From Nymphaea colorata (taxonomy: Eukaryota > Streptophyta > Magnoliopsida > Nymphaeales > Nymphaeaceae), in NCBI RefSeq assembly GCF_008831285.2, contig NC_045142.1:24813876-24877875 (forward strand): a stretch of 64,000 bases of DNA, given 5' to 3'. The stretch's first letter is position 1. Every line of letters begins with the position of its first letter. Both the position numbers and the translations under genes were made by a program. Shown in pieces: positions 35,605 through 62,853 of this stretch. The notes under the pieces were generated by a model, which made no database searches, had not been told where the DNA came from, and saw nothing but the letters and a program-made list of their open reading frames with translations.

Positions 35605-38600
35605 ATGGGGAGCGGGGAGGTGGAGGATCAGAAAGGGGGGACGCCGTTCAACGCCGGAGGAGCGGCGATCTCGTGTTCGATTTGCTTGGAGGTCGTGGCG
35701 GACAGCGGGGATCGGTCCACTGCAAGGCTACAATGCGGGCACCAGTTCCATTTGGGTAATTATGTTCATTTTCTCTCTTTTCTTGTTTAGGTTTCTTGGA
35801 AACTTTGTAGGGGTTTTTGGCCTTTGATGCGGCGAAAATTTTCGTCTGTGTGTGAGAATTTTTCTAAATAATCTGATGTTGTTGGTGGTGCATGTTGTGT
35901 GACTTGATGATTCTTTGTTTGGACGAGTAGGACTTAAGTCATCTGATGGATCCAAGGGACCTTTTGTCGATCTCAATTACGGGGGAATTGAACTCGCTCT
36001 CAATTCCGAGTTATTGAGCTCGTGATCGTCCATGGATGTGCCACGACGTTATTTTTGTGATCCGTGGCCGCTACTTGCGACATAACAAGTTGGTACCGGA
36101 GAAAATTCCATTCTTGCTGGCTATTCGTTTTTTGGGGACATGGGATCTGCCTAAGATGGTATTTTGAGGCGGTCTTCTTTTCTCTGAGATGTGGATGGCA
36201 TCAACTTGAGTTGCATTTCCCTTTGTGGGCATCTGTCGCTTATATTTTTTGGTAGTACACTGGGAAAGTTACAGCCCTTGCATTCCGGGAATTCAATATT
36301 TTTTATCCGTTATAATGTCTATATTTTTGCAGTTCTTGGTTAGCTTATTTATTATGCTGGAATACGCTGGAAAGCAAAACACTATTGCCCCATGATGGAA
36401 TTTTCATCTGGTTGTCTCGTCTGGAATTCCACAAACATCATAGTCGATGGATTTTGTTGTACGGAACATCGTTTGTCCACCTTGCTGATAATTTAATTCA
36501 ATAAGCTGGAATATGAGAATCATGCCAACACGTGCACCAGCACGCACACCTCTAGCCCGTCCAGCAGAGTTGTTAATGGTCTCAAATGCCTTAACATTAT
36601 TCTGGGATCATGACACGGTTCTGTAATAAGTTACCCAAACAATGAATTGGCTGTATTAGTAATGTAGGTATTCATAAATATCTTGTCAATTTCAAGTTAA
36701 GGCTGTATCTGATGCTAAGAAAATTCATTTGTGTGTTGGTTAAGCAGCACTTCCTAAGGACATTGATCAAGAATGAAAATTCTGTATATAAAGCAATCAT
36801 ATTCTCTTGCATCAGGGCCGCTAGTGTGTGGTAAACCTTCTTCCATCAGCCATGTGTCTATGTCCAACTTGAGCATTGTTTGGGTTTTTATTTTAACTAA
36901 CCTTGGCCCTTCTATCGGCTTCCTCAGTTCCTTCGAAATGCTTTTACAGTTGTAACAGTTCATTGTTGTTGGGGTTTTTCTTTGTGAAACTGAGACTATT
37001 GGCTCGAACTAACACAAACTTACCGTAGGCTGTGAGAACATATTTATAGGTTTTTCCTTGATTAAAAATTCATGGTACCTATGCTTTGACAAACACCCTG
37101 TTAGAACATGAAAAGTTTTGTGGTCTCAATCCTTCTTTTCAGCACTTCTATATTGCATGGTCATGTATAATTCCATGTTTGGCCTCTGATGTCCTGTTTT
37201 CTGTATCTCCCCCTTTCTCCCCATTGAAGATTTTGAGCTACCCCTTGTGAGTTATTGGAAATTGGCAGTAAATGATCGCTAATTAGTATGTTTTCAAACG
37301 GCTAGATTTATAGACATTTTAGGCTAATGTTAGAAAACCTGCACTTCCAAAGATCAATATAACAGCCACCTCCATTACCACCAAATAAATGAAGATATTA
37401 TAGTTCTGCTAATCTCTGCAGTCCTGCAGAAGCCTACTTCAGTATTTGACATCGTTGTTGTGTTTTTGTCTTTATTCTACTTGAAGGCTATAGGAAGTTC
37501 TTCTCATAAACTGTCTATAATCAATATTTTCTGTTCTCGCTGTTTCAGTTGGTGAGTGCTTGCTTCTATTTGTGCTTATGCTGCAAACTTCATTCTAACT
37601 TCCCCTCATGGATTTCATTTCAATATCATCTCAAAGAAAGGTGAAGAAATACAAGACAATATCTTACTCTACTATTGATGTTCTGAAATTTTTTTGGGTA
37701 AAAAAACTGGATTTGGAAGTTCTAATAAGATCTCACTCTTGAACAAAAACCGATTTTGTGATTTAGTTTTATATCATAGTTATCAGAAACTTTTACTTAA
37801 AGGGGAATCTTGCTTCTGGGAAGCACGTTTTGGAAACTATAAGCTTGATGTTTCCCTAATGAGGGTAAGCTTAGAGAAACCTACTTCTCACTTGCAGGAA
37901 GTTCGTCTCATGGAAAGGAAAAGTCACGTCTCAAGTTATTTATTTTCATCACTGATTAGTTGAATTTCTTCATCATTTTGTCGTTACTTTTTTAATGGTT
38001 GTGTGTTTTCTAAAAGGATATGTGTGACATTATATTGTTGTGAGTACACACTTAAATTTCTATTAGCTTTTAGCTTACTTTTTTTCATTTTATTATTGCT
38101 ACTATTTTGTTGTTTATTTCCTTATAAATTTTCTTAAGTGTGTCTCACTTCCCATTTTCATATTGAGGCTCGTTACCCCGCTTCTGCTCCTTGCCTTTCT
38201 GTTGGTATCCACTTGTTGTCCCTGTAGCTATGATTTATGTCCTTTCTAAGATTTGATTTTATTTTTTTCCAATATTCTGCCAATTAAAACAGAGATTTTT
38301 TTTTCTTCGATTTCCCATGGGATCTTAGCTTGTTGTTCGACATTTTTAACATCCCCTTGTGTCTCAAATATCATATATTTTCCTTTTTTTAACTTCCTAT
38401 GCTTTTCTTGATTCGCTTGAATGGCAGTCCTGCTCAGGTGCGTATTGGAATTGGTGGTTGATTTCTTTGTAATTGAGGTTTTCAATGTCTCCTTCAAAGC
38501 CACTAAAATGCCCTTATGAGTCTACTCATTCTGTGGTCCATGGAGTTCGTCATTGTAGGCTACACCCTGGTACTAAAATAAGTTTTTCTTAAGGGATGAA

Positions 38601-38737
38601 TGTTTACAGCTATAGTTTCTGTCTATTGAAGTGAACATTTTGGTTGGGTGTAAAGTAGGGATGATGTTCTTGTTCTTTAAATATTTAATTTTTGCTTTTT
38701 GTTTTTGACACCCACTGAACTTGTTTTTGTATCTGTC

Positions 38738-38778
<41 letters not shown>

Positions 38779-38891
38779 AAATCTCGTTTTTTTGTGTTCA
38801 TGATCACATTCTGTTCTTTAAATTTCTAGCTTTCAATAATTTCCGTGTGGTCACTATCATCAATGCAGTGGTCCTTTTTTTTAGGCAGGGC

Positions 38892-38951
<60 letters not shown>

Positions 38952-41900
38952 AATTCTGTTCCATTTGTATCATTATCAGGTCTGGGCATCGGACGGGCCG
39001 CTCAGCCCGGCCCGGACCGGGTCCTGCCCCTTTCCCCGCCCTCCCGTCGCGCTCTGAGAGTCCGATGGAGGAGGAGGGGGAGGAGATGGAGGAGGAAGGG
39101 GAGGGAGACGGAGGAGGAGGGAGAGGGAGAGAGAGAGGGGGAGAGGGAGAGGGAGGGGGAGAGGGAGAGGGAGAGAGGAGAGGGAGAGAGGAACAGGAGC
39201 AGAGAGGGAGAGGGGAACGAGAGCAGAGAGGGAGAGGGGGAGCGGGAGCAGAGAGGGAGAGGGAGAGGGGGAGCGGGAGCAGAGGGGGAGGGGGGGAGCA
39301 GAGAGGGAGAGGGAGAGGGAGAGGGGGGAGCAGAGAGGGAGGGGGAGCGGGAGTGGAGAGGGAGAGCGGGGAGTCGGGAGTGGAGTGGAGAGAGAGGGGG
39401 AGCGAGAGTCGAGCCGGGCCGGGCCGCCGCCGGGCCGGCCTATCGGGCCCGGGTCCGGCCCGTTGCCCAGGCTTAATCGTTATGCATATGTAGATAAATC
39501 AATCTTTAACTTGTCAGTGGACATAGCGGAAGATGAAGTATCTTAAGGGTGAAAGCATATATGATATAGGTTTGAGGATAATAGATAGGGCAATAAGATT
39601 GGTTCAGGAGTTGATAGACTCCTGTATTCTGTTTCTGTTCGTGTCTTTTGGGTAAAACCCTGTAATCACCCTATGAATAGTTGGGTGTGGTGATCCCCAG
39701 TTTTCATTGATGGTTAATGAAGTGAATCCCTTTCTGTTGTAAGGATAAGTTCTAACAGAGAGAAATAAGGGTGTTTGATTGTTTTTCTCATTCATACCTT
39801 TTGTATATTGTGTATGCATATTGCATATAGTTACAGCCATCCCAATGTACAGCATACATGTTAGTCACATGTATTTGTACTTTTTTATATAACCATTATG
39901 TCGATGCTGGATATGTCAAAAATAAAGTTAATGCACAGAGTACATCGTTAAGAATATATATTAATTGCAAGGATGCTAGCTATGCACTCTACAATGAAGT
40001 TTGACTAGGACCATTTTATTGAAAGCTACCTTCGCTAAGGTTTAGTGGTTTGTTTTCGAAAGAGTCATGTGCATGTTCATGGGTATGAAAGTAACAACTG
40101 GAATATCCTTGGAGGTTCACTTATGCACAGTATAAAAAGATTGCCCTCTGTTGGAGGCTGCTGTTTGAATAAATCAGTAGTTGTGTTTCTTTTGGCTGCT
40201 GTTGTATTCTTAGGTTTTGTTTGTCAACAGCAAACCTATTCTGCAAAGTCAAGGACTGAATCATCTCTCCACAATATTTGAAGGAATATTTATGGTTCCA
40301 TCTAATGAGCTAGAAACTTATGGAGTTCAATGGATGTAGTTGCAGTAAGAAGCTTGAAGATCATGGAGGTGTTTCTTACCTTGTATTTTGGCCTAAAATG
40401 AGAGCAATCTTTCATAAAAACATCTGGATATTTGTCTATCTTGAGTTATTGGGATGCTGTCAAGCTTTTCTGCAGTGAGTTTTCCTGTGGTACCTGAATA
40501 CATTTGCCCTGCTGCTAGATATTGGGTAGATTTAAATTTCTTGCTTGACCTTGTTATGCTATCATTTAAACGGATAAAGATTGCTTGCTTGGAAGCACAT
40601 GTAAGAAAGGCAATAAAAAAAAATGTTCATTGCTACCTCTATAGGCAGCTACTTAGAACATGTTTGGAAGAATTTGTGTAATCATCTGGCCTGTTTATAA
40701 GGTATTTACTCTTCCTCATGGTGAGGGGTTCCATGTCCATGGGGCATCCTGTGCACATGTGGGCATGTATGTCTAAATGTCTAGTGCATATTAATATGGT
40801 CTGTTTTCTTCTTCTGTTGGTTCTTATTTTTCATAAAGATTTCCTGCTCCACTGAGTCCTCAGGAATGAACTTAAGGGTTGTTCATCACGTTTAGGTTGC
40901 TATTTTTCCTTTAAATTTCTCCAAGTTAGTTCAGCCTTGAACTGTTTTCTTTTGGTTGCATACTGGTGATGTGTTGTTTTTATCCTCCTTTTTTACACAT
41001 GTTTTCACCATTATGCAGATTGTATTGGTTCAGCCTTTAATGCAAAAGGAGCAATGCAATGCCCAAATTGTAGGAAAGTGGAGAAGGGTCAATGGCTTTT
41101 TGCAAATGGATATCGTGCATTTGCGGATTTTGGTATGGATGACTGGACACATGATGAGGATCTCTATGACCTTAGTTACTCTGAAATTGTAAGTTCGTCT
41201 AACTGAGACAGTCACTGTACTTATTTATATATATCCTGAATCTTCCTTCTTTTGCATTGGATAATTCCATTTCTTGAGTATCTCTCTCTTTTTTCTTCTC
41301 GTCAGAGAAAATCTGATGAATATCTATTCTTTGACACTTTTTCTAGTCATTAATGATTAAATGCGGACACGTTGAAGTCAGTTAAAAATAGTTTACAAAA
41401 TGACTAACAAGTGGAAGAAGAGTTTGAATAGAAACTAGAATCTATTATCGCCATTAAATGGAATGTGAACTCAAAACCTGACATGATTCAAACCTCCATC
41501 CGCTGAGGGAGCTAGAAGAAAAGGAGGAAGAAGAGAAGAGGTGAAGGAGGGGGAGGAAGATGAAAACGAAGCGAAAATGAAGAAGAGACAAAAAAAGAAA
41601 AAAGATAGTAGGAGGAAGATGAGAGGGTGATGACTGACGAGGGATGATAATAACCTAGATCAAATGTTTGATTGAATTTAGTTATGGAAAATCTGATGCT
41701 GGACTCTTTGTTGACCATGCTCAACACACAATCCGAGATGCCTCATGGCTCACTTGCTGGGAACTGCACCTGCACTGGTTTCATGTTGTTGTAGTTGCTT
41801 CTGCACTGCAGACGCATCATCTCCATAGGGTGTTTGAACCAAGGTGGATCCAGATCTTTTCTTTTCCTGAAATTTCATGCAAGTTTTTGTGTGGGGTAGG

Positions 41901-44900
41901 GTTTTTTTTTTTTTTATTACGTAGTATATCAGATTGTCATATATAACTTATTATATATGTTAAAAAGTGTGGAAAACAACTATTATATATATTAAGCTAT
42001 TGATTATTAAGTTATATGATATGACTAATAATCTAATAGTGATATAGTCATCATATAACAATGCTCCATTAGCAGTCAATGTTATATGACTTATTATATT
42101 TGTATATTGATGACAAAATATAAAGTCTATAGCATTGACTTTGAAGATTCAAGAAACTGAAAATCAGTACAATAAGCGCACAACACACCTTGCATTGCCT
42201 AAGTGGGTGATGCAGGTGGTATAGCACCTAGGCGCACTTGTAGGCGACACATCAACAACATAGCTCATAATTATTTCTGGATTGGTACAACTGGATCATG
42301 TGTTGACAATTGTTCTCTGTGGGCAACTCACATGCTTGAGCAATGGAGTAAGCCGTGGTACTCTATCAAGACTTCTCCATTTGTAAATGCTTCAGTTAGA
42401 GTTGGTAGCTTGACAAGGGAAAAAAATAGTTACTGTACTTTGGACCCAAACAGACCTGATGCACTTTTCCTGTTCCATGGGTCATGTGACTCCACTAATA
42501 TTTTCCACCATGCTAGTGTTTCTTAGTCTGCAATGTATTCTTTGGCTAAGGAAGAGGTCCTTTTGTTTCTTATAAAATTATAGGTGAGGGATTGCTTAGT
42601 ATTTTCATGCTTTTAAATGCCTTTTTGTGTTATGGCATAATAATAATAACAGTAATAATAATGATAATAATAAGAATAAATGTCTAAGAACATTTATAAT
42701 TACTTTCTTTATCTAGTTTAAGCTACTATATGCAGTATCTCATTCACAACTGATATGATTTTTGTTTCCCTATTTGCAGCCATTTGGTGTTCATTGGTGT
42801 CCATTTCGTGGATTTACTCAACTGTCATCCTCCTTTGAGTAAGCTCATTTGAGTCAGTTATTTAGGTTTACATGTTATTAACTTATTATGTCATTTCTTG
42901 GATTTACTCAACTTTGTTGACTGCAGCAATATAGTTTGTTATCTACCGTAAATTGTTGCTGCATTGTCAATTAGACATGTTTGAACTGTTTTAGGTTGCT
43001 AATGGCTTGGATCAATAAGATACATGTTTCAACATTTGGATGAAATTTAAGAACTGAATTATGTAAACTGTTGGCATGAGAGCTTATGCAGTCATGTAGT
43101 CATGTGATTCTTGTCTTATGCAAAACTTAAAATATTGCTAAGTTTTATCTTTTAATGTGGTTGGGCAACAGCATGTTTTTCATTTCTTAATCTTGTAATT
43201 AGCAGTTGAAAGCTATGTCACTAGGTTTCTCCATTTCACTCATTGCTCCATCCCCTTTGTGCAAATCATATATTCAAAAAAATGTTGGATCCTTGAATCA
43301 ATTGCTGTATCCATGTCAGAACTCATCGTGCTTTCTTTTCTAATCAAATAAAACATGAAAAAGAAGGAATTTCAGCAATGCAATAATAAATTGTTGGGAG
43401 ATGGAACACTATCCGTCTCATTGACTAGAATCCTGACCAGTGAAGAATGACTATTACTCATCTTATTTTGTTCGTGTTTTTGGCTGTAGCTTTCAAATAT
43501 GTGATGCATAGTTTTGATTATAACTTTTATTAGATGCGCTGTCCAATCCTTTTAGTTGGTAATAAATGAAAATATCGTGTGTTGCTTTCCTGGGATCTTA
43601 TTTCGTCAAGCAAAGAAGGAAATTACGTACATGAACTAAAAGAGGATGATATCAGCTCTAACATTTCACAATGCCTTATTTGGAAGATTCTGTGTGGCAT
43701 TTGCTTTATGTCAAATATAAAAGAAGTGAATATCTTAACTCTTGATGCTCAGATTGTTGATTGTCATGATGCCGGATGATATTCTGGAGCATTGGATAAA
43801 ACCAAGCAATTTCTCTTTCCTCTCCTATGATCTCATTCAATGTCTTGGTTATGCATGGGGTGCCCTTCTGCCAAGCTTCACAGAGTAATTATGGCTGGTC
43901 TTCTTTTCCTTAGAACCCCAGTGAGAAAGCTAGGATATTCAGGTGTCTGGATTGGTCTAGCTCAAGTATTGCAATTGGGGTTGTCTCGCTAGACCTTGGC
44001 CTTGCTTTATTTTGTTTGAAATTTTGACCGACTCCCTCTTGTGGCCACCAAGCCTCTCTCTTTCTCTCTTTTCCTCTGTAGGCCTGTTTGTGATTTGTGA
44101 ACAATGAATCTACAATTTGTTATCCATTTTTTCTAGTCAAGCCGATGACAGATCTTGTCAATGGATAGATTGATTGGATTTTCTGGTGTTACATGTTTTT
44201 CACACCGATGTGCACCAAGCTGTCTTTTCCTTTTGGAATGCTTTCTATTGAAATGCATAAGTTCTATCATGTATAAAAATCACAATTCAGCTTATCTTGT
44301 CCTGATATATGAGGAAAAATTCTAAGTTTCTAATCCTAAATAGTCTTCAGCTGACTTAGGCCTCACTTGAACTTAAAATCTTGCTGCCTTAGCAGCTCTT
44401 ATCAATCTTAAGGTGGTTAGGCAAACAATTTCCCTCGTAAATCCAATGTAGCTTTGTAGATAGATCATACTGTATATTTGTGGCAGATACTAGTGGTGAC
44501 ACTGAAAATCTGAGTGCATCCCGCTATAGTACCTGGACAGATGCTATAACCATGATCTCGACTCTCAGCGAGAGCATCTTTGATCCCTCCTATCAATGAT
44601 AATTTCCTATGTGTATCATTTGGTGTTTCTTAGTTTTTACCTTGTTGCTATAACCTCAATTCAGGTTCTTTATTTGTTGCTTCCACTTGTTGTTCCTGGT
44701 GGGGTGGTCATCCTGGTGGGGTGGTCACATTGATTTATTGGGATGCAGTGTACTTATTGTAAGAATATAAGAGTTACTAAATAGATGATGACCGTTGCTG
44801 AATATGCTCTTCTGTATTGCAAAAGACATCTTAGTTGAATTGGTAAATCTACTTTTCTGGTTGGGCATTTTGGCCAGTCTCATCATCATGCTTCATCTGT

Positions 44901-47900
44901 GTCAAATCTGAAGTATTTTCACGTACGGGTTCTCCACTCAGCAGTACCAGATGAGGGAATTTGATCCTTAACCACACAGAATGCTTTGTCCAAGTATTCA
45001 TTGGTTTCAATACCCTATATCTTTTCAATGTGATTCTCCTGAAGTTGTCTTTACATACTTCAAGGTGAGATAGGGCAAAAGGACCATATTTTCATGTGAT
45101 ATGGAGTATGGACATTGGCATGCAAACACTGAACCAACAGAACCATTTACTTTGATGAAATTCTCTCTATATAAATTAATGGCCATGCATTCCTGATGGT
45201 GTGTTAATCACACTAACTTGCATATAGCATTTATGAGCAAGAAATGTACTTGTTTACTTCCTAGTCCTAACCATATGATAGTAACTTAAACAGTAAAATT
45301 TAAATGCAGTGATCCTGAATTTCATTATTAATTATCCATTTTGTTCTTTAGAAACTTGTGCATTTATATGTTATTTTTTTGTGATATTGCAGGGATGCTG
45401 ATCCTTCTTCAAGTGCATGTGAGTTTCTAACTTTAGGGTATTCCCTTTTTCCATAGACCTGATTCAGGCAAACTAAAGGTTTTCTTATGCAGATCAAGAT
45501 CTGTTTGGTCGTCATGCCATCTTTGCTGATCATGCAAGTGCTTCATCAACCACGCACGCATGCCCCTATCTAGCTCTTCATGCTTTTGTTCAGCCAGTTC
45601 ATCAACCTTCTTCATCCAGTAATTCTGACACTGTAGCTGATGTCACTGCTTTCCATCATCACTGGGCTGGACTTTCTGGCCCTGCCGATATTGCTACTTC
45701 TCATGGCTTTCCTGGTACGGAGCTCCATCATAATTGGGAGCCACATTCTCCACCATTCTCTCCAACAAGTGGGCTTATGCAGGGTTCTGACCAGGCTTCT
45801 GCACCTACTGCAGCAACACAACGATCTAGCAGAAGCAGTTTTGATTCAGATGGACTGCCTAGAGTTGGAGCTTTCCTGCCCCCTTTTCTTTTCGGCCACG
45901 GGTAAGTTTGTTGTCGTACTCTTTGCTCCATTCATAAACGTTTTAGCACAAATTTTAGGTCTGAGTGCTGAGGTGTTGGTCGTGTAACTTGATCAGCTGC
46001 CTGGATATGCCAATATCTTGACATAAGTTGTCTTTAGGACATTAACACATGCTTGTTCACTTTCCTGCAACATTGCATTCAACCATCCTGCTTGACTTAT
46101 GGCTTGTTATGGGATATGCTACCTAAGACCATGTGGTGGACCTGTTAATGCTTGTTGAGAATTTTGCTTAAGACTATACGAACTTTTATGTGCATCAGTT
46201 CCATTAGATAAGTGAATGTACAGTTAGTTACCTGATTTTCTAGATGTTCATTATCTATTTGGAAGGACTTTGAACAATTTTTTGTCCACTATTAGCAGAA
46301 ACTGGCATTTGGGGGAAAAAGAAAGTTCCAAACCTGAGCTTGAAGAAAGTAGTCGTGGCAATCAGCAATGCTTTACCTGAAAAAACTATACAATATTCTT
46401 ATTTCAACTCCAATTATATCAGCAAAATTAGACAACAGCCAAGTTAAGCTGTGAATATGAGACACTGGAGGTGTCTTTTGGTCTAGGTCATGTTACTTAT
46501 ATGCACGATGCCCGTTCTACCTATCACTTTGTTGAGAAGCTGGATCTAGGGAGATTGTGCAAGTTACGACTAGATAAAATCTATTATTTGGCATACCAGA
46601 GGTAGATCTACCTTATTACATTCCTAACATGTATAAATTCAAATGTGAGATATTTATAACAAATGTTGGTAATGGCTATCCTATGTATTCTGTGGCGTTT
46701 AAAAGTTTATCTGTTGCATCCTTACTTTAACATGATGTAAGCAGTAGTTGGATACGTTGAGTCATATAACTGATACCTAAAAACATTAATTAGTGAGATC
46801 TATCATAGATATGAGTCCCCAAACTAAGATCTGAAGCATCAACTGAACCGATTGTTGAGATTATATTATCTATCCAATTAAAAATTGCATGGCGTATCTC
46901 ACAAAGAGGTCTAGCTGTGAAAACGTTGGCTTCGGTGATGTGGTCAGAAGGATTTTCAATGTAGAAAATGAAATTTAAAAAGTAATCAACAGAATTAAAG
47001 TAGCTAAAGTACTCCGTAACTTGGTGGGAAACAACATAAGACTAGGTTAATGTACAAATCATTAAAAGTTCATCTTTTTCTTGATAAAATCCTATATATA
47101 ATGTTAGTAATGGCACTAAGAACATCTCGATGCACATGTACAGACCAGTCAGCCACGAGTAGGAATCAGGTTGCTGCCTGTTTCGCCTTCCTATGTCGCC
47201 CAGCTGTAAACCGTTCATCTCGTTTGTCACTGGCTTTCATCAGCACACTGACAATTTGACAGGACCAGATATGTGGGGCAAGTCACTGGGTGGCATACAA
47301 GTCATGGCCTGATCTTAGTTCATCAGCCAACTTGGTCGACCAAGAAGAAAAGTCATGCCAATTAACTTGGACAAGTCACTGGGTCTGCCAGCCAAGTTTA
47401 AGAACTGAATTAATCTTCAGTTTCCTGTGATGATGAAACATGATCTTGTCCTTAAAGTTTCCTTTCATTTTCATGTGTTTTAAACTGACTTTTGCAATGA
47501 AGTTCTTTTAGTCTTCTGTTTTCCTTGATTGTGCTTTGCCAATGCTCCTTGAGATATCTTCATCTTCATGCATATTAGTTATTGGAATGAAGTTTCTGAT
47601 TTTAAAACTCTTGCTATGTTGTAGATCTTCCAGAGCAGCCAGCTCTGTCATTTCTTCAGGGGTGCCACCTTATGTTGTTAATTCCCGTGGTCATGCTCGT
47701 GTTCATGCATACCAACAAACTTCTCCCGCTATTCGTGGTGCGTTTCCAATGCCAAGTAGACGGTCTGCCCCTCGATCATTAGCCCCAGTGCCCACATCCC
47801 ATCTAGGTACAGCTGCTGCTGCTGCTGCACCACTTGATCACGGTGGCTTCTATTCCACTGTATCTGCTTCTAGTAGGAATCGCCAAGATGGCGAGAGTTC

Positions 47901-48348
47901 TGGCAGCCGCCAGAACCATGGTCATGGATGGGAAAGAGAACGTTTTGCTCCATTTCCTTGGGTTCCGGTTGATGGAGAATCACACTGGTGGGGACCATTT
48001 CACCATGGCCAAGCTCCTGCTGGTAGTAGTGCTGGCGGTCCCGATTCTGTCCATAGAGGTGTTCATTGGCTTTATGCTGGTGTGGACCGATCTGGACAGA
48101 CACAAGCTGCTGCAAGTGGTGCTGCTGGTGGCTCAGATTCTGTCAGCCGAAGCACTTGGTGGCCATCATATTCTACCATGGATCGTGCTGGGCAGGGGCA
48201 ACCTCCTCCTGGTGGTGTAGGTACCTCAGATCCTGTCAACAGAACCAGTTTGTGGCAGTTATATGTCGATAGAGGAGGACAAGGGCGCAATGAAAGTCCA
48301 TATCAGCACCATGTTCGTCTTCCTAGAATGCCGCCTCCATTTATGTGA
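35605..48348 (+). CDS. RFI2: RFI2-like RING-H2 E3 ubiquitin ligase, six exons, 512 aa
   Basis: Exons 35605-35755, 41019-41188, 42780-42838, 45393-45418, 45493-45901 and 47625-48348 total 1539 bases in frame with GT-AG junctions. An N-terminal RING-H2 uses C24, C27, C44, H46, H49, C52, C65 and C68. It is followed by KVEKGQWLFANG, then DFGMDDWTHDEDLYDLSY and PFGVHWCPFRG, blocks typical of Arabidopsis RFI2 (RED AND FAR-RED INSENSITIVE 2). The rest is low-complexity: a His/Ser/Pro-rich part (exon 5) and a Gly/Ser-rich C-terminus with repeated WW and GGxDxV-type units (exon 6). RFI2 acts in phytochrome signalling and flowering control; that role here is by family only. Exon 4 has just 26 bases. 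Intron 1 (5.26 kb) carries a polypurine element. The RING exon pair is duplicated in the gene at 52565-57322. Confidence 0.9.
38743..38771. repeat. (AT)n microsatellite in RFI2-like intron 1
   Basis: About 28 bases of AT dinucleotides, followed about 125 bases later by a second compound run. Confidence 0.85.
38896..38952. repeat. Compound (AT)n(AG)n microsatellite in RFI2-like intron 1
   Basis: A run of AT passes directly into a run of AG, then aaattctgttcc. The compound AT/GA form is the same as that at the tails of the LINE copies, but no LINE UTR was recognised beside it. Confidence 0.85.
38979..39475. mobile_element. GC-rich inverted-terminus element with a polypurine core, in RFI2-like intron 1
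   Basis: The left end ggtctgggcatcggacgggcc and the right end ggcccgttgcccaggctt are imperfect inverted repeats. Inside each end lies GGGCCGGGCC-type sequence. The core, about 39063-39410, is nearly all G and A on the plus strand (gggagagggagag units), with very few pyrimidines. The open frames over it (Glu/Gly/Arg-rich, up to 251 codons) are composition artefacts. It appears to be a non-autonomous element inserted in the intron. No target duplication could be fixed. Confidence 0.6.
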
Positions 48349-51202: not shown

Positions 51203-52564
51203 TCAGTGCCTAGTCTTAATTCAAAACCGTTACGGAAGTAGTGGTAAAACCTCTCTCTTGGCATAAGAGATACACGAAGCATACAGATCTTCATTATGAA
51301 AGTCAAATGGTGACTCATGTCCACCTAAATGCATTCAGACTTCTTTTTGAACAAGGCAGGGTGGGCACCAAATGTTCCAAAATTCCTAAAAAAATAATGA
51401 TAATTATTAGAAATAAAAAGAAATTAAGTTTACCAAATTAACGAAAAATATTCTTATGTTCTCTCTCTATCTATCTCTCTCTCTCTCTCTCTCTAGTCGT
51501 GGACTCCTATGTCAATATCCGCACCATGTCTTCGTACGATATTTTATTTAATACTAAGTCAAATTAAGAAGTTTATATATATAAATAAAGTAAATTTTGT
51601 AGGCTGGCAACATAGCTCCGCCTCTTAAAAGAATTGAACTCAGTGTGATTAGTAAATTTTAAGCAATGTTATGAATATATGAATATCAGTATCGGCTTTG
51701 CATTTTGTATCTAGGTTATACGGATGTTGGTATGGATAGTGAGCGGTATATATATATATATGCACGAAAATTCCAGCAAAACTAATACAAAAAACGAGAA
51801 AAATAAGTTTTGGATACGCAAAAATGGTATTTAAAACTTTAAAATTAATATGCAAAAATATTTTTTAAAAAATATGTGTCCTTTGTTGCTGCACTAGGGG
51901 TCTGTATGTCAGTGTTATTTTATCGTAACCATGTCGCTTAGGTTACATTCATATTTTCATACTTTTAATGAAAATAATAAATATTTTTGATAATTACGAC
52001 ACTTGAATTGAAAGGTATATTTCAAATCAACACAAAACTTTGAACGTATAAGAATATGAGTTAAAGGTCTTACGCGGAAGATGATACTGAAAAAACAAAA
52101 CAAAACGTTTTTTTAATTTGTAAGTGGGTACGGCAGTTGAATGTAAAAGCGGAGACTTGGTGCCCTCTTTTACGAAATAGAAGAGGATGAGACGTTACTG
52201 ATGCCGTCTCCGATAGCGGCTCGGGTGCACTCCTCCTGTAGTCATGAGCCCATTTTTTCTGCCGTCATCATCAACGTCGCCATCGTCATTACAATCACCA
52301 AATTGTGCGGGACCAAGGTTTTGCATTTGCCCTTTTCCGCTCTTTCTGTGAAAAGGAGAGAAAGTGGCTGCGGAGGGAGGAAGGAGAGAATTGTGGGGGG
52401 TTCCCATACTTGTTCTTTTTCTTTTTCCTTGTGTTCTCGTTGGATTCTGGGGAGTTCCGTAGGAGGATGTAGGAGTTGTTTCTGTTGTTTGTTTCTGGCT
52501 TTTTTGATTAGGTTGTGTCTTGATTGGTCGCTAGTTTTTTTTTTTTTTTTTGGTGGTGGTATAT
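51203..52564. other. Spacer and probable promoter/leader of the KIX-RING gene
   Basis: AT-rich DNA with a CT run near 51460-51496, then genic-looking sequence from about 52140. A 204-codon frame from 52201 overlaps exon 1 of the KIX-RING gene in another frame and has no domain, so it was not called. Confidence 0.4.
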
Positions 52565-53002
52565 ATGGAGGGAAACGGTGCGTCGACGGCGCAAGGAGAT
52601 TTGGGGATGACGTCGACGGATTGGAGGTCGGAGCTCTCTGCAGCTTCGCGGCAGATAATCGTCGATCGAATGTACAAAAAAAAAAGAATATTTTTCTATC
52701 TAACTGTTTGTTTTGCGTAGATATTATTATCGGTATCAGTTCTTTTTTTGCTCCTTTCGAAAATAATGAGTTCTTGTTTTCTGAAAAAATTATAGTGGAT
52801 TTAGCACAATTGTGACTGTTAGAATTCTTTATTTGCTTTTTGATTGATAAATAGCTTTCTTTAAGGGAGGTTCTATCAATTTCTGACTATGCAATTGTCT
52901 TGTCTTTAGAATCTTGTTTGAGGTCTTGATTGTGTCATTGAGAAGAGTTATAAGACAAGATGCTTACATTATTAGAGTTTTATTTTTTGTGAAATTGGGA
53001 TT

Positions 53003-53051
<49 letters not shown>

Positions 53052-56000
53052 CATCCCACTTATCAAAACTCGTATTTTTTAATAGCCTAGTTGGAAAGTT
53101 AGAAATCGGTTCTATGACATTCGCCCGAGGAAACTGTGTTTTCAATTCGCTTGAAAAAAAAAAAATTGTCGGCTGATACTAGGTTTCGGAGTGGATATAA
53201 GAAATGACTTGTTGATAATCTTTTAGGTTTAGTTTGTCTCTCTTTCATTTATTGAACCGCGGATAGTTGGATTTCTCTTTTAAAGTTGTTGGCTGTCTGG
53301 AATTTTGCAAAATTGCAATGAAATGAGGCGGCATTTTGGTTTAGTGCGTGGTGTTTACTTCTGTTGCTGTATGACAATAGATAAGATGGTTGTGTTTTTC
53401 TGTGCAGAATTGCGACGCTGATGAAACACTTACCAATCTCTGGTCCTTTTGGAGTCTTGGAGCTTAAGAAAATTGCCGAAAGATTTGAGGAAAGAATGCA
53501 TGCTACTTCAATGAGTCAGGTTCATAATCGATTTTCTTTTTCATCTGCTAACGACATGCATTTTCTGTTCAATATGTTTTCTTTTTATCCGCTTCAAATT
53601 TTCTCCACTCTCCGATTCATGTACTAGAAGGAAACTAGCCCTTCTTGCAACGAGCATTGCTCCTTTTTTTTTTTAAATCTTAAAATATTAATGTTCTTCA
53701 TAGTTACAATTATCTGGTATTTCTGTTTCTGTTGTTTTTCTGGATAAATATGTAACTTGGAGCACCTGATAGAGGAAATACTGAGTTTTCTTTCAAATGA
53801 TGGAAGCAACGCTGTATCTACCAATGTACATTTCGTGAAACTTGTCATCTGTTACGGCATAACTTTGCATTCATTGCATTGCTGAGTCATTAGGTGTGAC
53901 TCGTCAAATGATTTGGTGATTGAGAAAGACCATACTTGTTATTGCAGAAGAAAATGGGCCCCTTCTGATGAAGGTGGTTTTCTTTGAGCTATTTTGAGTG
54001 TAGATTGCTTAAAACATCAATTATTAGATCCTTGAATTTATTTGGACTCTATTAACATATTAGCTATGATGTTTTTCTCCTCAGCCGGATTATTTGCGGA
54101 GAATATCCATTAAAATGCTTCAGATGGAACCGATATCTGCATGCAACTTTGTCACTGGAGGCGAATTTTTACAAGTTCCAGGTACCTGATTGTGAAAGTA
54201 ACGACATCCTTTGAGAAAGTTTTATGCATTAGAAATCCATAATGGCTCTTAGCCTAGCTGTTTACTGCATCAGGTTTTCACATAAAGTCACGTATATTGT
54301 TTGTGGTTGGCTAGCTTGACACCACGTGCAACTACAGAACCAATGACAACATTTGCCCTTTTTTTTACGACCGTTTTCAAGCATGGAGATGGAACTGATA
54401 AATGAATCTACAAAATTCTTTCTTGTCTGATAGTACTACATTTAAAATTCACACCACATTTTCTTCCATTATGGGAAAAAACCAGGCCAGCTTTGTCCAA
54501 TATCGTCAACCAGAACTTTACGTTGCAGAACAAGTCCCAGATTTCAGCTGACTCCGCATATAATTTCACAGGACAAGGTAATCCACAAAATACATCTTCA
54601 GTTTCTCAGACACAAAACCAGGCAAGGTTATATGGAGATACAGCTTCCCTTCAACAGCATCAGCAACAGCCAAAAAAACAAAAACGGTCCTGTTCTCACG
54701 TCATGGGGAAGCAGAAAAAGTGCCGCATGTCATCTGCTGTCGAAGAGGAGATCTTGTGCTCAATTTGTTTGGATCCAGTTATGGATAATGGAGAGAGATC
54801 AACAGCTAAACTGCGATGCAGTCACCAATTCCATCTTGGTAACTAGACTTCTTTTTCTTTCTGTTGTGTTTCAACCTTCTATATTGTTCCTTCCTGTGGT
54901 AGTGCAAAGCAGTATAAAAATAGGACTTGAAGTTCCATTTTTGTTAGGATGGTGGATTTCTAGATGAATTTTGTTTGATATGTTTAAAAAGGATGTTCTA
55001 TGTTATATTTTATGGCTTTATTCTAATAGAATTATGGACTAGCTTTCTGATTATTGCATGCTGTCAGAATCAGCCAATTCAAATTGAGTTGGTGGCAAAA
55101 TTATTTGATTCGGTAGCCAATTTAATGATGTCACATGTCAGCATTATCTAATTATAAAATATTGTAAGATTTTAAATTTTTAATTATTTTTTATATATTT
55201 TTTGAAAAAATGATTTTTTTAGTTTTTGGCCAATTCAGCTGAATCAGTGAATCAGCTGATTCTCCAAATTGGCAGCCTGCCCAATTCGGTTCGGGGACCA
55301 ATTTTGGCAACCACCGGCTTATAGTGATTGTTGACTACTATATGTTAATTTTTTGTTTCTTAATACCCATAAATTATGCCTTAATGGCGTGTTAGGTTTG
55401 TAACTGTGTTTCATGTTTACATGGATGCCATTTTTCTTGGGGAACTGGATAAGAAGCTTGAAGATTTCATATTGCATCTTGAAACCAAGTTGTTTCATCC
55501 ACAAATGATGCAGAGCTGAATCCTATGATTGGGGGGCAGATACTAAGTTCTGTGTATCTGATTTATGAATGGAAGCAAAATAGCATATCACGTTTTGGCA
55601 GTTGTGGAGCCACAAATTTATGGCTAAGGCGCACCTGGGACAAGCGAGGGCAGCTCAGATGGCTGGACCCAGGACCCAAGTCCATTTAAGATTTAGAGCC
55701 TGCAGGCCCATGTGGGCCACACCACTGCGTTTTGGTGATCTGCCATGTTGTCATCAATGGACCATTGTTTGAATCATGTCACGTGTGTGCAAGTGCAGAT
55801 ATTGGCGCAGATCTATTAATATTACAAGCGAAACAAAATTTAAATATTGTACATACCAAAGGGGTTCCTGAGACTAAACTAATGAATTTATGAATTTGTG
55901 ACTCATTTAATTTAACAATGCCAAACTTAAGCAAAATGAAGTCTAATGTTTGTACCAAAGCAATTACGAGTCTAAACTAATGAACTTGTGAATTTGTTGC

Positions 56001-57322
56001 TCATTTAACAAACCAAAGTCAATGTGCACTTATGTAGTTAACTGTATTAATCATAGGTGACACATGAATTTGGTAAGTTGGGAAAAAGTGCAGCACCAGC
56101 ACCTGATAAAGGTCCTACATTCGAATGATACCCAGTGTAAACATGAGTGGTCTATATCGATAATGCTGGTACTATCTTGAATTTCAGTGCTAATTGTTTC
56201 CAACTGAATTTGCTTTTTATATTTGGCATCGCTATTGTTTAACTAGTGGAAATCATTAAATGTATGGATAAAATCATCAAAAATCCAAGATTTTCTAGGG
56301 ACAAAAATTTGAGGGCGTCCAACTCATTCAATCTTTATCTTTGACGAAATATTTCTAGTTTGGGCCGTGCCATCGAAGGTTCAGTTAGAGAGCCTTAGCA
56401 AAAAACGTAAATCCTTCGTATTTTGTTTTATGCAATTATGATTGTTTTATTGATGTATACCTTCTGATCGTTGATATATCATGCAGATTTGAAGGTTACC
56501 TAATTTTACATATGAGATGGAGTGCATATTTGACAGATCATTGACTTACTGACTGACTATTTTCTGGATAAGTTGGGGGAATGAATTAGCAATTTTTATT
56601 TCTTTACACGGCATACATAATTGTTTGGATAGTTTACTTAATTTCAGCAATACATATTACCATGATTTCTTCCCTCTGAAGGTCTGTATCTATTTGGGTC
56701 ATAAGGAATCATATTTATGACAAAGATAAACAAGTTGTAGATACTTCACCTCCAAATGATGCTTTATATAGGATTATTGATTGGTAACTGATAACTTCAG
56801 CCTGCTTGGTGGTTGACACGTGTTTGCCCTTACTTGGTGAGAATCAAGCTTGACCGTACTTCATATCAATGTATTTTCTTTCTTTTAGATATGTGTTTCT
56901 TTCAGCTTTGACAAATGTCTACGTGTGTCTGCTATGGAACTTGCATCTGTGTGTCTGCTATAGAACTGTTCTTTGACTTTGGCTCTGTTGCATATTTTAT
57001 CTTTTATTGTTTCTCTTGTTTCCTTTCCCTATGCTATTTCTTCTGGATATCATGTACCATAGCCAGAAAAGCCTTTGTAATTTGGCCTGCATTTGTGCGC
57101 CATTATTAGATTGACGCTAGTGATCTTTTGCAAAAGAGTCTCCAGTCTTTTATGACCTACAAATGTTATTTGAGGATAGGCATCTTTCTCTTTTTTTTTT
57201 TTTTCTGATCCAAGGTTTATTATTTTTCAGATTGTATTGGTTCAGCATTCAATGCAAAAGCTTCAATGCAGTGCCCAACTTGTAGGAGAGTTGAGAATGG
57301 CCAATGGCGTTTTGGCAGATAA
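52565..57322 (+). CDS. KIX-RING fusion protein: MED15-type KIX domain joined to RFI2-type RING-H2, five exons, 251 aa
   Basis: Exons 52565-52671, 53408-53519, 54085-54181, 54491-54838 and 57231-57322 total 756 bases; all phases agree. Residues 19-92 match the KIX domain at the N-terminus of plant MED15: DWRSELSAASRQIIVDRI, MKHLPISGP, LELKKIAERFEE, then DYLRRISIKMLQME. A polar Gln/Ser/Asn-rich linker (about 106-190) with a basic KKQKR patch follows. The RING-H2 has C195, C198, C215, H217, H220, C223, C236 and C239. KIX domains bind transcription activators and RING-H2 recruits E2 enzymes, so the product might ubiquitinate KIX-bound factors; this is inference. The intron after HQFHL matches the RFI2-like gene in position and phase. 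The frame stops 12 residues after the last Cys because of one extra base relative to that paralogue. Exon 4 uses the acceptor ending at 54490, not 54485, to keep frame. Confidence 0.82.
53007..53048. repeat. (AT)n microsatellite in KIX-RING intron 1
   Basis: About 42 bases of AT dinucleotides between exons 1 and 2. Confidence 0.9.
55070..55318. repeat. Dispersed MITE-like repeat, copy 2, in KIX-RING intron 4
   Basis: It shares ccaattcagctgaat and ttggcagcctg with the copy at 8085-8300, and has gaatcagc words near both ends. It lies in the 2.4-kb last intron of the KIX-RING gene. Confidence 0.5.
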
Positions 57323-57740
57323 ATATCGTTCTTTCTCAGATTTTGGTGAGGATGACTGGACAGAGCGGTTGTGATCCTTATGATGATTGCCTACTGCATG
57401 GTTGTGGAGGCTCCTTTGGTTCGAATAGGCAGTATAAGGATAGATTGCTCCATTGGTTAGGTTTTACGTGTACAGTTTGTTATCCTTTAGCTTGTTCTGG
57501 ATCTTTTCATTCCTGCTTGAAGTAAGGGGATAATTGTACTGTACTCATTATCCATGAAAAAGTGTGCATGGAGTCCTACAAAAGACTCCACAATATTTTT
57601 CCCATTCACATATCTAGATAGTGCTGTATCCAAGGGAAAGTGGTGGAGAAACATGACTCTTCTGTTTCACTTGTAGAAAAATAATTTGCCATCTGTCATG
57701 AGTAATGTATATATGTATGTAAATTATCATAACATTTTGA
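57323..57740 (+). pseudogene. Decayed remainder of the RFI2-like exon after the KIX-RING stop
   Basis: Directly after the stop, tatcgttctttctcagattttggtg and gatgactggaca still align, one frame over, with the RFI2-like exon encoding YRAFADFG and DDWT (41019-41188). Similarity then fades and no later RFI2 exon is seen. This marks the part lost from the duplicate by the frame shift. It probably serves as 3' UTR now. Confidence 0.65.
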
Positions 57741-57974
57741 TGTACAACGTCCTGTAAAACGATTCCGTAGTTTTTCTCTAGGTTTGGAGTGATCTATTGC
57801 TGCACTTAGATCTTTGTAAGAAAGTGGGCATCTAAGAGCATCCTCTGTTGTATGAAGTCTCATAAGAAGATACAAGGTGGTATTTGTCACTGGGTCATAT
57901 GTTGGTCCTTATCCAAAGGCAAAGTGCTGCAGAATCATGACTATTTTGCTTCTTGTGTTGGCTAAGTAGCCTTC

Positions 57975-60900
57975 TTGTCCATTGTCAATTCCCGGTGTAA
58001 ACGAGAAAGAAAGGCTCGTAGGTCGGACAAGTTGAGGAAGAAACCCTCATTCTCCTCTACTTCTCGGAATCAAAGTAGAGAATTCCGTCCCCAAGGAAAG
58101 GAATTGGTTCCCTACAACCGTGGGAACGATTATAGGCCCAACCCAAGACCGGGCCGTGACCTCCCAACACGTTACCTGACCCCAAAACAAATAGAGGAGT
58201 ATAGAAAGAAGGGCCTATGCTTTAGATGTGAGGGTAAGTGGGAGAAGAACCACCAGTGCAAGGCACTATTCAACATCGTGGTGGTCGATGAACCGGAGAC
58301 AAGCTCCAGTTCAGAAAGCGATTCCTCCTCTAGCTCTAGTTCCAGTTCCTCGTCTGATGAGGAAGTCCAAGTGAAGAGAAAAGGAAAGAAAATTGAATCT
58401 GAGGAACCACAGAAGGGAGAAACCTCGAACAGAGAAGACAAATCTGAAGAGGTTGAATCCTTACATTCTATCCAGGATCCCCATAAGGCTAACGCCATGA
58501 GAGTTTTTGGCCGCATCAATGGCCAGAAAGTTTTGATTCTGCTCGATAGCGGTGCAACAAACAACTTCTTAACCGAAGAAGCCGCTGAGAAGTGCAAGGT
58601 CACTCTCAATGAGAGCAGCCCACAGACTATAATCGTGGGAGGGGGTCATCGACTCAAGTGCATCCATGAAGGAAATGGCATTGATGTCAACATCAAGAAG
58701 AAGAACTTCAAAGTGGATTGCCTAGTCATTCCATTAGACGGAGTCGACTTGATTTTAGGAATGCCTTGGTTCCTAACTTGGAAGGATATTCGTTGGGATG
58801 TGAAGAACTTTGCCATGACGTTCATCCCAGACGGAGAAGGGGAATCGATCACTCTTCAGGGACTCGCCAGCTCCACGCGTCCCAAGGCAGCATTGCGGTC
58901 CATCCAGCATGAGCAACCCGCTTGTTGGGTACTTACACTGGCTACGGATGTACCAGTAGCTGAAGATAAGGTGGAAGAACCAATTCCACCAAGCATTCAA
59001 TTGGTCCTAGACCAATTTCCAGCCATTTTTGATGAGCCCAAAGGCTTACCGCCAAAACGGGCATATGATCATCGTATCGTCCTCGCACAAGGTGCGGAGC
59101 CTGTCAACGTCAGGCCATATAGGTATGGGCACAGCCAGAAGGCGGAGATCGAGCGCCTTGTGAAAGAAATGTTGGAAAGCGGAATCATTAGGCCTAGTTG
59201 CAGCCCTTTTTCTTCACCAGTTCTCTTAGTGAAGAAGAAGGACAACACTTGGCGATTCTGTATTGATTACAGGGCGCTGAATGAGGTGACTGTTAAGGAT
59301 CGGCACCCCATACCAGTTATTGATGAGTTGTTAGACGAATTGGCCGGCGCCACAGTATTTTCCAAGATTGATCTCAGAGCCGGCTATCATCAGATCAGAA
59401 TGTTCGATGAAGACGTCTTGAAGACAGCGTTCAGAACGCATGACGGGCATTATGAATTTCTCGTAATGCCTTTTGGACTGACAAATGCACCGGCTACATT
59501 CCAGCGGTGTATGAATGATGTGTTTAGAGCCCATCTCAGAGACTTCATCCTCGTATTTTTTGATGACATACTCATCTATAGTAAGGACGAGGAGCAACAC
59601 AAGAGGCACCTGGAAATAACTCTAGGTATTCTTCAGGAGCACCAGCTCTTTGCGAAGATGTCCAAATGCAGTTTTGGACAATCTTCCATTGGATATCTCG
59701 GACACATCGTGTCCCGAGAAGGGGTTCGGGCAGACCCCGAAAAGTTGCACGCCATGGAGAAATGGCCTCTGCCCAAGGACCTCAAAGGTCTAAGAGGATT
59801 CCTCAGATTAACTGGGTACTACAGGAGATTCATCCAGGGATATGGCATTATTGCCCAGCCCCTCACCCAGATGCTGAAGAAAGGAGCCTTCTCTTGGACT
59901 GAGAAGTCGAGAGTTGCCTTTGACAATCTGAAAGCAGCTCTAATGACCGCCCCAGTACTAACTCTCCCCGATTTCTCAAAGACTTTCACTATTGAAACAG
60001 ATGCGTGTGAAGTCGGCGTCGGAGCAGTACTAGGACAAGATGGTCATCCCATCGCGTATATGTCCAAGGCCTTGACTAGCCGGGCCAAGCCCCTCTCTAC
60101 ATATGAGAAGGAGTTGCTTGCAATCGTAATCGCGGTGGAAAAGTGGCGTCCATACTTGATTGGACGCAAGTTTATCGTCAGGACCGATCAAAACAGCCTG
60201 AAGTACATGTTGAAACAACGTGTGTCTACCCCCACTCAACAGAGATGGCTAGCGAAGCTCTTGGGGTATGACTTTGAAATCGAGTACAAGAAGGGTCCTG
60301 AGAACAAGGCGGCGGATTCTCTTTCCCGCCTCACTGAACAGTTGATGACTTTGTTTGTGGTGGAGACGGACATTTGGACGAGATTAGCCCAGGATCAACA
60401 TGATGACCAGTCATTAAGGCTAATCAAGACTTCGGTTCAACAGAACCCCGGATCCATTCCTTTGTATTCAGTCAAAGGAAATCTTCTGTATAGGAAGGAC
60501 AAGGCTGTAGTCCCTCCTAACTCTGGGCTAAGGCAGGAACTCCTGCAGCATTTTCATGACACCCCTGCAGCGGGTCATGAAGGGGTCGCTAAGACCCTTG
60601 CGCGAATAAAGGCCCAATTTTGGTGGCGAGGAATAAAGGCAGAAGTACAAAACTACGTCAAGAAGTGTATAGTCTGCCAGAGGGAGAAGTACGAGGCCAT
60701 CAAGCCTCCTGGTCATTTGAACCCTCTGCCTATACCAACCAAGCCGTGGACTGATGTCACGATGGACTTCATCGACGCCATGCCTCGATCAGAAGGGAAA
60801 GAGGCAGTCTTAGTTGTCGTGGATCGGCTCACTAAGTATAGTCACTTCGCCCCCTTGCCGAGGTTGTATCAAGGGCCACTTGTGGCCAACGTCTACCAAG

Positions 60901-62611: not shown

Positions 62612-62853
62612 TAGGCCCAACCCAAGACCGGGCCGTGACCTCCCAACACGTTACCTGACCCCAAAACAAATAGAGGAGTATAGAAAGAAGGGCCTATGCT
62701 TTAGATGTGAGGGTAAGTGGGAGAAGAACCACCAGTGCAAGGCACTATTCAACATCGTGGTGGTCGATGAACCGGAGACAAGCTCCAGTTCAGAAAGCGA
62801 TTCCTCCTCTAGCTCTAGTTCCAGTTCCTCGTCTGATGAGGAAGTCCAAGTGA
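62612..62853 (+). repeat. 242-bp exact copy of the gypsy gag segment (58133-58374)
   Basis: Read base by base, 62612-62853 is identical to 58133-58374, including the zinc knuckle and the serine tract, at a constant offset of 4479. It stops at caagtga and is followed by unrelated sequence. It follows the truncated LTR without the leader or the gag start, so it is not a normal second element. Confidence 0.97.

Follow-up and report, generated by a model that had tools for sequence, protein, structure and literature searches.

The water lily Nymphaea colorata carries a real chimeric gene in which a KIX domain of the MED15 type is joined to a RING domain of the RFI2 type. The gene, called KR1 here, lies at positions 52565-57322 of a 64,000-nucleotide stretch of DNA (the window; C5:24813876-24877875, contig NC_045142.1) and corresponds to LOC116254951, an uncharacterised protein in NCBI. 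The original prediction, made from the sequence letters, had proposed that five exons yield a KIX domain and a complete RING-H2 domain, and this is borne out by GT/AG exon borders, by Pfam matches above their cut-offs and by an NCBI protein model, isoform X2, that the window DNA reproduces letter for letter. The product is most likely a nuclear E3 ubiquitin ligase that would act on, or compete for, the clients of MED15. Among the plants searched, the domain pairing has so far turned up in water lilies only; its origin can largely be read, and its putative function is attractive.

Gene structure

The exons of KR1 and the features within exon 4 are as follows.

52565..52671, + strand: exon 1, with the start codon, the N-terminus and the start of KIX helix 1; donor AT/GTACAA; N-terminus matching Victoria and MED15 exon 1
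53408..53519, + strand: exon 2, KIX helices 1-2; PF16987 match at C5:24867284-24867394 (window 53409-53519)
54085..54181, + strand: exon 3, KIX helix 3 (PDYLRRISIKMLQME)
54572..54838, + strand: exon 4 in its supported form, with a MED15-derived Q-rich linker, the basic block KKQKRSCSHVMGKQKKCR and the first half of the RING
54491..54571, + strand: 27 extra codons of exon 4, present only with the acceptor of the original prediction
57231..57322, + strand: exon 5, the second half of the RING, then TAA
52244..52317, + strand: alternative first exon of NCBI isoform X2
54572..54684, + strand: MED15-derived part of exon 4, from local alignment with MED15 exon 4; fusion point at or shortly after 54684
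54685..54750, + strand: basic block RSCSHVMGKQKKCRMSSAVEEE, conserved among the KIX-RING copies and with invariant residues in a five-sequence alignment

All borders follow the GT/AG rule whether exon 4 begins at 54491 or at 54572, giving a product of 251 or 224 amino acids, and the agreement of the phases (2, 0, 1, 1) that had been claimed for the 251-residue model follows from the exon lengths. Every letter of isoform X2 (Nymphaea colorata, 213 amino acids) is reproduced from exons 52244-52317, 53408-53519, 54085-54181, 54572-54838 and 57231-57322. Its first exon cuts away the start of the KIX domain, with a KIX_2 score of 57.6 bits versus 82.1 in the form that begins at 52565, and the latter start is backed by a match to Victoria and to MED15 (MEG...AQGDPGM...DWRSEL).

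After exon 3 both X2 and the Victoria cruziana protein read QVPGQG..., which places the exon-4 acceptor just before 54572, as in X2 and, judged from protein and not from DNA, in Victoria; both of these proteins are annotations, that is, predicted models. The preceding bases, 54491-54571, have no demonstrable homology to MED15 (score 62, reached by 169 of 500 shuffles) and are absent from X2 and from the Victoria protein, so the longer exon 4 is set aside. The acceptor at 54491, on which the original prediction relied, is thus probably not the main one: on the sequences compared, the 224-residue form is the better-supported main product, and the 251-residue form is possible but unsupported.

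Domains and the point of fusion

A Pfam search of the 251-residue product, one of the checks proposed at the outset, returns KIX_2 (PF16987) at 82.1 bits over residues 18-88 (cut-off 25.6) and zf-RING_2 at 34.2 bits over residues 194-240 (cut-off 27.3). All eight zinc ligands of a C3H2C3 RING-H2 are kept, as had been predicted (C195, C198, C215, H217, H220, C223, C236 and C239). The RING contains CSIC and CPTCRR, of which we take the isoleucine to be the residue that contacts the ubiquitin-conjugating enzyme (E2) and the arginine to be the linchpin. A structure prediction for the Victoria protein from 26 aligned sequences has a mean predicted local distance difference test (pLDDT) score of 59.7, with three helices at about 70-87 in the KIX region and a poorly predicted RING.

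The KIX half descends from MED15, and the descent continues beyond the domain itself. The segment 54572-54684 aligns with MED15 exon 4 at 108687-108799 (positions above 64000 are window coordinates extended into the neighbouring C5 DNA) with a local score of 239, which none of 500 shuffles equalled; the best shuffle reached 154 against a longer MED15 stretch, and 125 with the query 54572-54690 against a shorter one. Extension of the alignment from 54684 to 54760 gains just 5 points. MED15 sequence past the KIX domain and the exon-4 linker was not found in KR1, the homology stopping near 54684 with the RING coming next.

Exon 4 read from 54572 is free of stops and runs from the MED15-derived QGNPQNTSS...QQHQQQPKKQK through the basic block (RSCSHVMGKQKKCRMS) into the RING. 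The join of KIX half to RING half therefore lies inside exon 4, about 113 bases in, and not at a splice site. One open frame that passes from MED15-derived sequence into the RING within a single exon excludes a pair of separate genes; the earlier contention that these are not two unrelated fragments stands on this and on the same architecture in Victoria.

The block RSCSHVMGKQKKCRMSSAVEEE together with the preceding KKQK looks like a bipartite nuclear localisation signal. Its derivation from the 5' region of the RFI2-type neighbour is unsupported, as no match was found there (273 of 500 shuffles were as good); against MED15 there is a weak match at another place in that gene (25 of 500 shuffles as good).

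Distribution among plants

The Victoria cruziana protein (258 amino acids) has the same two domains and is 61% identical over 100% of the query. Searches covered proteins of 0.55-1.75 times the query length from genomes with protein predictions. A full-query search returned 113 proteins, of which two, from N. colorata and V. cruziana, have both domains; the statement in the original prediction that RFI2-type proteins lack KIX is thereby upheld, these two being the only matches that carry it. A KIX-only search, of limited reach since it missed N. colorata X2, gave 33 proteins with a RING in one (Victoria). Among the best 120 of 814 proteins in a profile search, where a KIX-RING protein should rank at the top, both domains occur in two, again the Nymphaeaceae N. 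colorata and V. cruziana, and a simple motif check across 236 collected proteins found the same pair. The search for this domain combination elsewhere, proposed with the original prediction, thus succeeded for Victoria and yielded no family other than Nymphaeaceae among the matches listed, so that the fusion appears, among the plants searched, to be restricted so far to the water-lily family. In the open-licence literature searched (titles, abstract openings and some passages) no KIX-RING protein is described and LOC116254951 is not mentioned.

A predicted protein of Nymphaea thermarum, on a 16-kb contig, combines the middle region of MED15 with the basic block and half a RING; it may be an independent recombinant with more of MED15, or a mis-joined model.

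Tandem copies and genomic neighbourhood

KR1 is one of three KIX-RING copies that stand on C5 between an RFI2/IPI1-type gene and MED15, all in the same orientation.

35605..48105, + strand: RFI2/IPI1-type RING E3 gene, candidate RING donor, from tblastn with four RFI2/IPI1-type proteins and Pfam RING in the first two exons
35605-35755, 41019-41188, 42780-42839, 45483-45902 and 47626-48105, + strand: coding pieces of this gene, borders approximate
52.6-57.3 kb, + strand: KR1
65.7-79.5 kb, + strand: KR2, a decayed KIX-RING copy
84.6-92.7 kb, + strand: KR3, an intact KIX-RING copy of 201 amino acids
from 99.0 kb, beyond the window, + strand: MED15 gene

KR2 and KR3 share the plan of KR1. KR2 has lost its ATG and has a TGA within the RING; in KR3 the frame is open and all RING ligands are kept. 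The DNA of KR3 matches MED15 at 89-91%, introns included, up to KR3 position 88561, and from 88564 it matches KR1 instead, the first 197 bases at 91%; KR2 agrees with KR3 on either side of this switch. In the KIX domain the synonymous divergence (dS) is 0.05 between KR3 and MED15 and 0.99 between KR3 and KR1, and in the RING it is 0.06 between KR3 and KR1. KR3 is therefore a mosaic and, on these divergences, reads as a newer MED15 KIX on an old RING. Its KIX is identical to that of MED15 at 84 of 91 residues, with 7 nonsynonymous and 3 synonymous changes, which are too few to judge.

All three copies end directly after the RING, at a point where the Victoria protein continues (ADKHHAFSDFDEDDW...) (57290-57375). 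Read in another frame, the bases past the stop still give a tail resembling that of Victoria, which makes a common Nymphaea truncation of about 35 residues 3' of the RING likely.

The RFI2/IPI1-type gene looks complete and has a long first intron of about 5.3 kb. Some 0.6 kb past KR1, at 57966-62066 (~58.0-62.1 kb), there is an uninterrupted frame of 1366 codons on the + strand that by its motifs has a Ty3/gypsy-type look; 58133-58374 recurs at 100% identity at 62612-62853, 3' of this retrotransposon-like frame, so that part of the gag region is oddly present twice.

A search of the 408-Mb genome with PF16987 found, outside C5, a MED15 gene on C10 that is collinear with the C5 MED15. MED15 exon 2 and its flanks recur in isolation at C4:10862072-10862185, where 207 bp match C5 MED15 at 97.6% identity. 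At C8:5409000-5418999 the first two exons of a KR1-like gene and their flanks occur at 87-89% identity, split into two segments that face opposite ways and contain two TGA codons; this reads as a broken, dispersed copy of a KR1-like 5' half. Past MED15 (about C5:24935000-24947300), blocks near 121-126 kb and 132-133 kb match the same C10 places, each twice, which suggests another tandem duplication adjoining MED15.

Conservation

The two halves are unevenly conserved. Victoria and KR1 share 52 of 54 residues in the RING, against 43 of 71 in the KIX. The Victoria KIX is closer to C5 MED15 (54/71) than to KR1, so it is the RING, with the linker common to both, that ties Victoria to KR1 in particular. 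In an alignment of five sequences, one row of which (N. thermarum) lacks the KIX, most of the invariant columns fall in the basic block and the RING's first half.

The KIX domain has nevertheless kept most of its conserved residues. From 74 distinct KIX sequences (88 usable rows among the 236 collected proteins), 34 positions are at least 90% conserved; both MED15 genes (C5 and C10) keep 34/34, while KR1 keeps 29, KR3 30 and Victoria 31. KR1 and C5 MED15 share 60 of 91 KIX residues, with a dN/dS (nonsynonymous to synonymous divergence) of 0.24, where, as for the ratios below, the values are Nei-Gojobori estimates and dS is near saturation. On the five-sequence alignment the RING and the block before it appear to be the best-kept parts of the protein. 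The uneven conservation tempers a function resting on KIX clients, and the KIX may be less important than the RING.

Proposed origin and function, and the alternatives

The explanation that best fits these observations, to which we give a probability of roughly 0.55, is that KR1 arose by tandem duplication as a chimera of MED15 and an RFI2-type gene, and that it encodes a small nuclear E3 directed at MED15 clients. The 5' part of the gene (exons 1-3 plus some 113 bases at the beginning of exon 4) comes from MED15 and the 3' part (the RING, exons 4-5) from an RFI2/IPI1-type E3 gene. A duplication whose endpoints fell within exon 4 of MED15 and close to the start of an adjacent, co-oriented RFI2-type gene would span the junction and leave the order RFI2, chimera, MED15, which is the order now seen. 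KR1 exon 5 and exon 2 of the neighbouring RFI2-type gene are 82% identical in DNA (57222-57362 versus 41010-41149). If MED15 and the chimera afterwards recombined by unequal exchange, KR2 and KR3 would have resulted, each with the old RING behind a more recent MED15 KIX. As an account of the gene order, tandem duplication is the likeliest reading and no demonstration.

As to function, the product would be a small nuclear RING-H2 E3 ligase whose KIX catches MED15-using transcription factors by their activation domains and whose RING recruits an E2, so that the bound factor, or nearby MED15-bound assemblies, would be ubiquitinated or kept off Mediator. The original prediction had likewise suggested that such a protein could bind activators and ubiquitinate them, competing with MED15 for its clients or clearing them, and overall its interpretation is partly supported. 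More tentatively, the water lilies may possess a family of Mediator-client E3s, a MED15 KIX trap with a RING, re-armed at least once by recombination with a fresh KIX; if so, such grafts would let the target range track that of MED15, and the family would be a natural, repeatedly renewed adaptor for targeted degradation.

Several results weigh against the duplication origin or the client-directed function. In an unrooted tree of 34 RING sequences (31 of the 113 full-query matches and three from Nymphaea, at most about 90 residues each, with the N. thermarum protein left out for its shortened RING), the three KIX-RING sequences stand apart from the remaining 31 (support 99), away from the neighbouring RFI2-type gene, and RING dS between KR1 and that gene is about 2, which is saturated. 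The tree placement and the saturated dS make the neighbour a positional, not a proven, donor of the RING; as the tree gives no such placement, the stronger claim is rejected. Around the C10 MED15 there is no RFI2-type match in the 48 kb examined, which leaves an ancestral adjacency of RFI2 and MED15, as read from C10, unsupported. One of the two extra copies, KR2, has decayed. Finally, the constraint on the KR1 KIX appears weak: dN/dS on the KR1 branch alone is 0.47, indistinguishable from 1 (169 of 1000 bootstraps are at or above 1, or negative), compared with 0.03-0.05 on the MED15 branches.

It is conceivable, if on balance unlikely, that KR1 is a RING E3 whose KIX is turning vestigial, with selection keeping the RING and the basic block and with substrates bound through other parts. 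The closer match of the RING than of the KIX between Nymphaea and Victoria, the concentration of invariant columns in the block and the RING's first half (with one row lacking the KIX) and the loss of the KIX start in X2 all point this way. Set against these are KIX_2 scores of 82-101 bits in KR1, Victoria and KR3, far over the cut-off of 25.6, the 29-31 of 34 conserved positions that these three keep, and the near-unchanged MED15 KIX of KR3. A free KIX might instead simply titrate activators from MED15, the RING mainly setting the protein's own turnover. Among the matches listed, short proteins with a MED15-type KIX and no RING are indeed common, and RFI2 RINGs auto-ubiquitinate (PMC8224859); plain titration would not, however, need strong conservation of the RING, and we consider it improbable.

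Less probable still is a gene without function, left over from repeated tandem duplication whether or not it is transcribed. The lost start codon and RING stop of KR2, the broken C8 copy, the stops straight after the RING in all three Nymphaea copies and the 7 to 3 excess of nonsynonymous changes in the KR3 KIX would suit it, but KR1 and KR3 retain an open frame and all ligands, and Victoria shares the architecture with a near-identical RING. A gene-prediction artefact, in which a KIX fragment has been joined to a separate RING gene, is close to refuted: although both supporting models, from Victoria and from NCBI, are annotations, they agree across two genera, KR3 follows the same plan, and MED15-derived sequence and RING share one unbroken frame inside exon 4. 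The preferred reading remains the duplication-derived chimera, as an E3 for MED15 clients.

With a KIX and a ubiquitin ligase in the same chain, one protein would both capture an activator and bring about its destruction. Such a protein would be nature's equivalent of an engineered degrader and would serve as a test case for switching off contacts between Mediator and activators. The chimeric gene still lies between its probable parents, its join readable almost to the base, and what looks like a second renewal of a domain is visible in the tandem copies.

Comparison with known systems

Transcription factors dock on KIX domains through their activation domains (PMC3936767). The partners of KIX given in KIXBASE (PMC5668377) include the acetyltransferase-type domains HAT, TAZ, bromodomain and ZZ, together with MED15, kinase and RecQ helicase domains, and words starting with ring or ubiquitin have 0 occurrences in its main text. 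RFI2-family proteins are described in PMC8224859 as nuclear-enriched E3s that auto-ubiquitinate in vitro and support the oxidative burst triggered by pathogen-associated molecular patterns (PAMPs).

By sequence, the best solved relatives of KR1 are 8i3x_A, a RING-type domain-containing protein, and 9zjn_C, Mediator subunit 15a. The former is presumably a member of the RFI2/IPI1 family. The RING half of KR1 matches this family in its sequence, and an intron after FHL splits the RING as it does in the neighbouring RFI2-type gene. KR1 differs from the family in lacking the long C-terminal region, since tblastn with four RFI2/IPI1-type proteins finds at KR1 just the two RING exons and the protein ends at 57322; in having a KIX, a MED15 linker and a basic block in front; and in the separate position of the KIX-RING RINGs in the unrooted tree.

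The plant MED15 KIX (PF16987) is recognisable in KR1 from the 60 identical residues noted above and from the corresponding exon borders, and the linker of KR1 derives from MED15 exon 4. Unlike MED15, KR1 lacks the rest of that protein, ends in a RING and has a diverged KIX. The short MED15-type KIX proteins of other plants, common among the matches listed, resemble KR1 as small KIX_2 proteins, but none of those listed has a RING. MBR1 and MBR2 are RING-H2 ligases that act on MED25 and so, like KR1, link a RING-H2 ligase to Mediator; to our knowledge they are separate proteins with no KIX, whereas KR1 unites both domains in one chain.

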